From Chloroflexota bacterium (GTDB lineage Bacteria > Chloroflexota > Dehalococcoidia > Lucifugimonadales > Australimonadaceae), in the NCBI GenBank assembly GCA_028874795.1, contig JAPPHT010000009.1, forward strand, positions 56,103-114,552: a stretch of 58,450 nucleotides of DNA, in the 5' to 3' direction. Positions 41,480-43,127 of this stretch are shown here, in pieces (position 1 is the first letter of the stretch; every line of letters starts with the position of its first letter). The position numbers were made by a program, and so were the translations under genes. The notes beneath the pieces are model-generated. The model saw only the letters and a list, made by a program, of their open reading frames with translations. It did no database searches and was not told the origin of the DNA.

Positions 41480-42316
41480 TCAAGCCGCGGACGCGGTGCG
41501 GCTGCTGTGGTCGGACTGGGGACGACCACCGGGATGCGCCGCACGAACGGGACGAGTGGTCCGTCGCTGATGGGGAGAGTAAGGAGTCGCGGAACGCACC
41601 TTGGTGCCGACGCGGCAACCCGGGTATACCGGCCTGCGCGCCTGCCATTGCAGTTGCCGGGTCAGCGCGGCGTAGCTCGCGAGTTCCGTTCGCCGCAGAT
41701 TCCGGATCGTCTCCAGTTCCCGCCGGGCCTTTCGCACCTTTCGGACTTCCCGGACGACGGCCCACACCAACAGGAGTGGCCCGATGACGATGGCGGCCAC
41801 ACTCACCACGCCCAGAGCGAATCGCAGGCTCACACCGAACACGAGCGAGCTACCCGTTCCGATGGCTGGAGCGGCCCCGGGAAAGAGAGTCAGCAGCTTG
41901 GCTGTTATGGGACGCAGCAGGTTCATGATCGTGGCAGACCAGGCCTTCCAGACGGTGCCGGCCACGAAGCCTGCCCCCTGGCGTCCGATGATGCTTGCCC
42001 GGGAATGGGGAGAGCCGTCGGCGACCGTGCGCTTCCGGCGTCTGAGGAGCCGCTGCCAGATCGGCGGAGGCGGGGGAGGTTCCTCATGCTCCTGAAGGGA
42101 AGCCGGCAACTCCGGTCCCGGCAGGCTCAGCCGATGGCAGAGCACGATATGGCGTTCATAGTGCTGCAGCATCTCGTCCCGGTGGAGCGACTCCAGTTCC
42201 TGCAGCTCGGACTGCAGCGCGTTGAGCCGCTCGTGGCTCTTGAGCTTCGCGGCCGCCTGGGCTACGGCGGAGCCACCGGCGATGGCCAGGGGGATGAGCA
42301 GGGCAGGTAGGGGCAT
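41480..42316 (-). CDS. Hypothetical membrane protein with coiled coil
   Basis: I do not recognise this 278-aa protein. Residues 1-20 are hydrophobic, about 27-60 are a Glu/Leu-rich amphipathic helix (HERLNALQSELQELESLHRDEM), then EPPPPPPIW. Two long hydrophobic segments follow near 113-150 and 157-187, and a basic helix at about 188-205 (REVRKVRKARRELE). The last 60 residues are basic and low-complexity. No ribosome site is visible before ATG 42316, and the last part could be non-coding. The heptad and TM pattern nevertheless argues for a real gene. It is convergent with Ldh2 and divergent from tRNA-Cys. Confidence 0.55.
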   Translation of the reverse strand: MPLPALLIPLAIAGGSAVAQAAAKLKSHERLNALQSELQELESLHRDEMLQHYERHIVLCHRLSLPGPELPASLQEHEEPPPPPPIWQRLLRRRKRTVADGSPHSRASIIGRQGAGFVAGTVWKAWSATIMNLLRPITAKLLTLFPGAAPAIGTGSSLVFGVSLRFALGVVSVAAIVIGPLLLVWAVVREVRKVRKARRELETIRNLRRTELASYAALTRQLQWQARRPVYPGCRVGTKVRSATPYSPHQRRTTRPVRAAHPGGRPQSDHSSRTASAA

Positions 42317-42451: not shown

Positions 42452-42527
42452 GGCGACGTAGCCAAGTGGTTAAGGCGGAGGTCTGCAAAACCTCTATTCG
42501 GCGGTTCGATTCCGCCCGTCGCCTCCA
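42452..42527 (+). tRNA. tRNA-Cys (GCA)
   Basis: Acceptor GGCGACG/CGTCGCC, anticodon stem GAGGT/ACCTC with loop CTGCAAA (anticodon GCA at 42485-42487), T-arm GGCGGTTCGATTCCGCC, discriminator U73 (a tRNA-Cys identity base) and encoded CCA. It is 48 bases upstream of the OsmC-family gene, whose UGA falls at a Cys position. The acceptor length and anticodon exclude tRNA-Sec. Confidence 0.97.
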
Positions 42528-42575
42528 AAAGCCTGTTATCAACGACGCTCCCACCCTTGCAGAAGGAACAGTGTC

Positions 42576-43127
42576 ATGGAAGAGATTGTCAGGAAGGTCG
42601 AAACGAGGGAGTCGGAGCCAAGAGCCGGAAACCAGGACGGCGTCCGGCGGGAGATCGTCATTCAGGTCGAGGCGGAGACGCTCGAGCGACAGCGCAAACT
42701 GGCGCGCGTCCAATCCGGCAGCGGCAGTGCGTTCGAGATGCTGTGCGACGAAGGCACGCGCATCGGCGGCGACGATACCGCGCCCTCCCCGCTCGCCTAT
42801 TTCTCGGCGGGCGTCGCGTTCTGACTGCTCACCCAACTCGCTCGGCTGAGCGAGATGACCCACATCTCCTACACGAAGGTGCGGCTGCGGCAGACCGCAC
42901 GCTTCTACCGCGACGGCTCGGCGCTCGCGGGCACCATCGTCGGCGGACCCGCCGGCCTCGAGACCAGCGTCGACGTGGAATCGGAAGAGCCGTCCGAGCG
43001 TGTCCGCCGCCTCGTCGACATGGCGGAAGCCAGCTGCTATGCGCTCCAGTCGCTGTTGCAGAACGTGGAAGTGACGTCCGTGTTCACGCTCAACGGTGAC
43101 CCGCTGCCGGAGGCCGCCCCCGCCTAG
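42576..43127 (+). CDS. OsmC-family protein read through in-frame UGA (probable selenoprotein)
   Basis: OsmC/Ohr-type proteins reduce organic hydroperoxides with two thiols. Read normally, the frame stops at TGA 42822-42824 after 82 codons and resumes without a shift to 43127. Read through, it is one 183-aa OsmC-like protein. The first half ends SPLAYFSAGVAF, the strand before the family's first active-site Cys, and UGA falls exactly at that Cys (residue 83). LLTQLARLSEM continues the active-site helix, and the second thiol is Cys154 in AEASCYALQ. A 7-bp stem with a GGCT loop lies 12-30 bases after the UGA, as expected for a bacterial SECIS. ATG 42576 has an AAGGA site. Alternatives are a nonsense mutation or sequencing error. 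selA, selB, selC and selD are not in the window. Confidence 0.82.
42822..42854 (+). promoter_or_regulatory. UGA codon with bacterial SECIS-like hairpin
   Basis: TGA (42822-42824) is followed by CTCGCTC (42837-42843), loop GGCT (42844-42847) and GAGCGAG (42848-42854), a perfect 7-bp stem. The loop starts 19 bases after the UGA and opens with GG. Known bacterial SECIS elements sit inside the gene just after the UGA, need a G among the first loop bases, and have their loop roughly 16-37 bases away. All three conditions are met. Confidence 0.75.

Follow-up and report, generated by a model that had tools for sequence, protein, structure and literature searches.

The results indicate that the UGA codon at positions 42822..42824 (+ strand) of the 58,450-nucleotide stretch analysed here (the window) is almost certainly read as selenocysteine (Sec), in a selenoprotein of the NCBIfam family NF041052. 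This reading draws on the reading frame, the alignment column of the codon, a covarying hairpin, the selenocysteine machinery of the host and the predicted fold of the protein. We propose that the codon is decoded as Sec because the mRNA hairpin at 42837-42854 recruits SelB together with Sec-tRNA-Sec, which would be made by the host-encoded SelA and SelD.

The OsmC-like selenoprotein gene occupies positions 42576..43127 (+). Its read-through translation is 183 residues long, Sec being residue 83; the frame ends at a TAG stop codon and contains a single internal stop, namely the TGA at 42822-42824. Just 5' of the ATG, a purine-rich stretch resembling a ribosome-binding site, AGAAGGAA (42561..42568, +), was read directly from the sequence. 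Standard ORF calling cuts the gene in two, at 42576-42824 and 42855-43127. An earlier note had proposed that these abutting frames form one OsmC-like protein broken by the TGA alone, and the profile searches bore this out. The Pfam OsmC profile PF02566 matched residues 65-167, crossing the UGA, with 50.1 bits against a gathering cut-off of 27.5. The NCBIfam model NF041052, "OsmC-related (seleno)protein", matched with 165.5 bits against a cut-off of 95, over profile positions 2-144 of 144. Annotations in which the gene is split, or taken for a pseudogene, could be corrected on these grounds.

The UGA lies in the column that holds the first redox Cys in OsmC-family proteins, at the head of a U-x-x-T motif, which agrees with the placement suggested previously. 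In this column, 37 distinct homologues, with protein identities as low as about 30%, have TGA and 12 others have TGC or TGT; two more rows are unaligned there, and one TGA row (L087) was left out of the count as a spurious frame. Homologues aligned at residue 83 have either predicted Sec or Cys. In the genome collection, the four close relatives, at 80-85% identity, keep the TGA, as do the two distant relatives at 40%. In a sample of the class, 32 of 393 genomes had a match. An in-frame TGA was present in each of the 19 best matches, which reach as low as ~32% identity, and the weaker ones were mostly Cys forms. In a sample of 400 genomes of the phylum, 27 genes scored above the NF041052 cut-off; one of them has TGC at the column, and each of the other 26 has a single in-frame TGA. 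The codon is conserved across the genus, family, order and class, as well as in metagenome-assembled genomes (MAGs) labelled as other phyla. One of the relatives is labelled SAR202 and others Dehalococcoidia or Chloroflexi; judged by these names, the host probably belongs to that group.

Two of the TGA homologues (L027 and L028), both 40% identical, are found in MAGs labelled Proteobacteria and Acidimicrobiales; their placement may reflect horizontal transfer or misbinning. The SECIS apex of L027 is nearly identical (CTCGCTCGGTCGAGCGA). One further genome, G119, has two TGA-bearing paralogues, L036 (G119:C20:7703-8182) and G119:C113:1986-2462.

A structure model built from 27 homologues had a pLDDT of 88.5. 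When it was compared with solved structures, OsmC/Ohr types filled ranks 1-33 with Z scores of 9.9-15.0, and unrelated structures began at Z 8.4; the OsmC/Ohr match spans nearly the whole model. The model places Sec83 inside the long helix of residues 72-95, and Cys154 where the next helix (140-153) ends.

In Ohr/OsmC proteins, both cysteines are required for activity and form an intramolecular disulfide that is reduced by lipoylated proteins (PMC8945050). The two redox positions, the first of which may be Sec, are present here. Residues 83 and 154 are invariant among the 27 aligned selenoprotein sequences, as are D58, E59, Y75, A150, N173 and G174. The second Cys was thus found intact, as noted earlier; it is encoded by the TGC at 43035..43037 (+) and is the candidate resolving cysteine. 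By analogy with relatives, a Sec/Cys redox cycle of the selenenyl/thiol type is likely. A substrate, for instance an organic hydroperoxide, would oxidise Sec83, the oxidised Sec83 would form a bond with Cys154, and this bond would be reduced by a dithiol donor.

The reaction itself is less firmly indicated. The other OsmC protein of the host has the canonical SPEE...C motif (SPEEL), and the selenoprotein has SPLAY there, with the Glu replaced. The alignment of the selenoprotein family has no column with an invariant Arg. The catalytic Arg and Glu that canonical Ohr/OsmC peroxidases have near the first redox residue are not recognised here; the invariant D58 and E59 sit elsewhere in the sequence. 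These departures from the canonical site leave doubt about peroxidase activity. The proposal of a Sec-based peroxidase was upheld for Sec insertion, which is supported by the machinery, the alignment column and the hairpin, and the peroxidase half of it stays an expectation weakened by the unconserved canonical Glu. We consider hydroperoxide reduction the probable reaction, judged by likeness to relatives. A selenoprotein with a different reaction, for instance thiol transfer or a YhfA-like role, is clearly less probable but deserves weight, since it would accommodate the missing Glu and the lack of an invariant Arg. The YhfA proteins are also without the Arg and Glu of Ohr/OsmC, and their activity is uncharacterised (PMC8945050). 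Against this reading, both redox positions are invariant, and the title of the related structure 3cje calls it an OsmC-like hydroperoxide resistance protein, which is a name and not a tested activity. We also regard as tentative the idea that Sec83 and Cys154 work with other helpers (D58, E59 and Y75 in place of Arg/Glu), so that the substrate or the donor would be unlike those of the known Ohr/OsmC peroxidases.

Downstream of the UGA, a predicted bacterial SECIS hairpin occupies positions 42837..42854 (+), as recognised by folding, recoding and covariation. The 7-bp stem, CUCGCUC/GAGCGAG, has its arms at 42837-42843 and 42848-42854 and closes the apical loop GGCU. The stem starts 12 nt and the apical loop 19 nt past the UGA, and the 7-bp hairpin with a GG-led loop described earlier is thus present. 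The bacterial SECIS model has a stem of 4-16 bp and a loop of 3-9 nt with G in its first two positions, placed 16-37 nt after the UGA (PMC13188914). With its 7 bp, GGCU loop and distance of 19 nt, the hairpin of the OsmC gene falls within these ranges.

It should be noted that the fragment 42822-42870 can also adopt an alternative fold of -15.3 kcal/mol. Moreover, at 104 sites in the window a TGA joins two frames that are each 60 codons or longer, and a more stable downstream fold occurs at 21 of these sites. Because a hairpin behind a TGA is common in this GC-rich window, the evidence from the single sequence is suggestive and not decisive. Three of the larger TGA-joined frame pairs of the window with a downstream hairpin had no Pfam match on either side.

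It is the comparative evidence that lifts the hairpin above chance. None of 500 synonymous recodings of the gene's own sequence gave a helix as long (7 bp) at that place. The helix averaged 6.46 bp in the 37 TGA homologues and 2.70 bp when their peptides were recoded synonymously; the 12 Cys homologues showed no helix excess (2.5 versus 3.3 when recoded). Nearly all of the 37 TGA sequences have a hairpin of 6-7 bp with a GG- or GU-led loop at a fixed distance from the UGA, and it nearly always takes one of two registers, with a loop of 4 or 3 nt. Counting from the first base of the UGA, positions 24-25 read GT in 31 of the 37 sequences and GC or GG in another four. Across the 18 second-register sequences, 98.1% of the cells pair and changes on both sides occur in five of the six pairs. 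Their covariation score was 0.740, compared with 0.237 ± 0.043 after shuffling and at most 0.160 in slid registers. As a piece of evidence, then, the hairpin fared better than the lone sequence would allow: it is real and covaries among homologues, although taken alone it would be weak.

The best single control for the hairpin is the closest Cys orthologue, L064, which scores above the NF041052 cut-off. It carries TGC at the column, and its hairpin is gone (-0.6 kcal/mol) in spite of the retained peptide TQLARFAP; meanwhile, TGA relatives sharing this peptide retain the hairpin. The TGC and the lost hairpin suggest a natural Sec/Cys switch. This close orthologue lies at G649:C8:95038-95463, in a genome that also has selA. 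The aligned hairpins and the natural control, with Cys and no hairpin, make the gene a clean case of a covarying bacterial SECIS within a coding region.

These comparisons also bear on the other explanations of the TGA. A lone in-frame TGA is a frequent form of decay or error, so that the codon could be a nonsense mutation in a pseudogene or a miscalled TGC/TGT. We consider this very improbable. Genomes assembled independently, both within the genus and in much more distant lineages, have the same TGA, and its conservation over such distances refutes this origin. No second internal stop is found and the hairpin covaries. In comparisons of close relatives, both flanks of the UGA are under purifying selection, with dN well below dS; downstream of the codon, dN was 0.07-0.08 against a dS of 0.36-0.45. 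The in-frame ATG at 42855 after the UGA would allow two polypeptides, 42576-42824 and 42855-43127, to be made by termination and re-initiation. This too is highly unlikely, as the OsmC domain crosses the UGA, the segment LLTQLARLSE between the UGA and the ATG is conserved in distant homologues, and the Cys orthologue is one uninterrupted frame. A genome-wide reassignment of UGA, for instance to Trp or Gly, would likewise keep the frame open, but it is the least credible explanation of all: TGA terminates the ordinary NUDIX, FAS1-like dehydratase and Mem_trans genes beside the OsmC gene, which shows that UGA is not globally reassigned, the homologues carry Cys at the column and neither Trp nor Gly, and selA and selB have no in-frame TGA.

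Decoding of the UGA as Sec is in keeping with the gene content of the host, whose genome assembly (3.33 Mb in 90 contigs) is 97% complete. A search of this genome returned selA (508.6 bits), selB (341.5 bits), selD (389.1 bits; L019, G000:C89:24806-25726) and tRNA-Sec (69.9 bits; called by ARAGORN as tRNA-SeC with the anticodon TCA). The selA and selB genes are also frequent in sampled relatives without the OsmC-like gene. As the machinery is common both with and without the gene, its co-occurrence does not discriminate. The host selD is likewise interrupted by an in-frame TGA, close to the N-terminus (CAGU-AGK), which we take to be the active-site position of SelD; it is followed by a GG-led hairpin whose apex resembles that of the OsmC gene. 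Because of this TGA and the hairpin behind it, the selenophosphate synthetase of the host is probably itself a selenoprotein. Formate dehydrogenase matches in the host genome had no in-frame TGA.

The genomic neighbourhood gives no clear hint at the function. A tRNA-Cys gene (42452-42527) lies 48 nt upstream of the selenoprotein gene in the same direction; it is kept in four relatives of the genus and was not seen in two members of the family. The two genes are possibly co-transcribed, but the adjacency is probably a coincidence. The other neighbours encode Ldh_2, a luciferase-like monooxygenase, a transporter and an ammonium transporter, and they are syntenic in the genus. A PII-like gene following the ammonium transporter was identified by eye from the sequence. 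A membrane-protein-like ORF at 41480-42316 had no Pfam match and is ~70% conserved in the genus.

The family as such is not new, as the earlier note had stated. OsmC-like selenoproteins with the UxxT motif have been reported from marine metagenomes since 2005, again in 2008 (PMC1088965, PMC2398784), and a 2026 review includes them in its list (PMC13188914); the curated NCBI model NF041052 covers exactly that family. Our search found no literature on SAR202 selenoproteins or on selenocysteine in OsmC proteins of Chloroflexi, and the papers searched do not mention the host lineage; this is weak evidence of absence, as the search covered few subscription papers.

With its score over the NF041052 cut-off and its one in-frame TGA, the gene resembles the other members of the family, and no feature sets it apart from them. 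It shares Pfam PF02566 and the UxxT motif (here U83-L-L-T86) with the OsmC-like selenoproteins of the Sargasso Sea and GOS data sets (PMC1088965, PMC2398784). Those were metagenome fragments, three and five sequences, whereas here a family first met in such fragments is tied to a genome with the complete Sec machinery. The closest solved relative by sequence is the OsmC-like protein of Jannaschia (PDB 3cje; E 3.7e-24 with the family profile). It has the second Cys and a CxxTQ motif at the Sec column, and thus differs in having Cys instead of Sec. The canonical OsmC/Ohr peroxidases (1nye, 1n2f, 4xx2) have the same fold and the same positions of both redox residues; in contrast to them, Sec replaces the first Cys here and the glutamate of the SPEE/NPEQ motif is missing. 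Measured against these systems, this is a well-supported selenoprotein gene and an ordinary addition to a known family, not a new kind of system.
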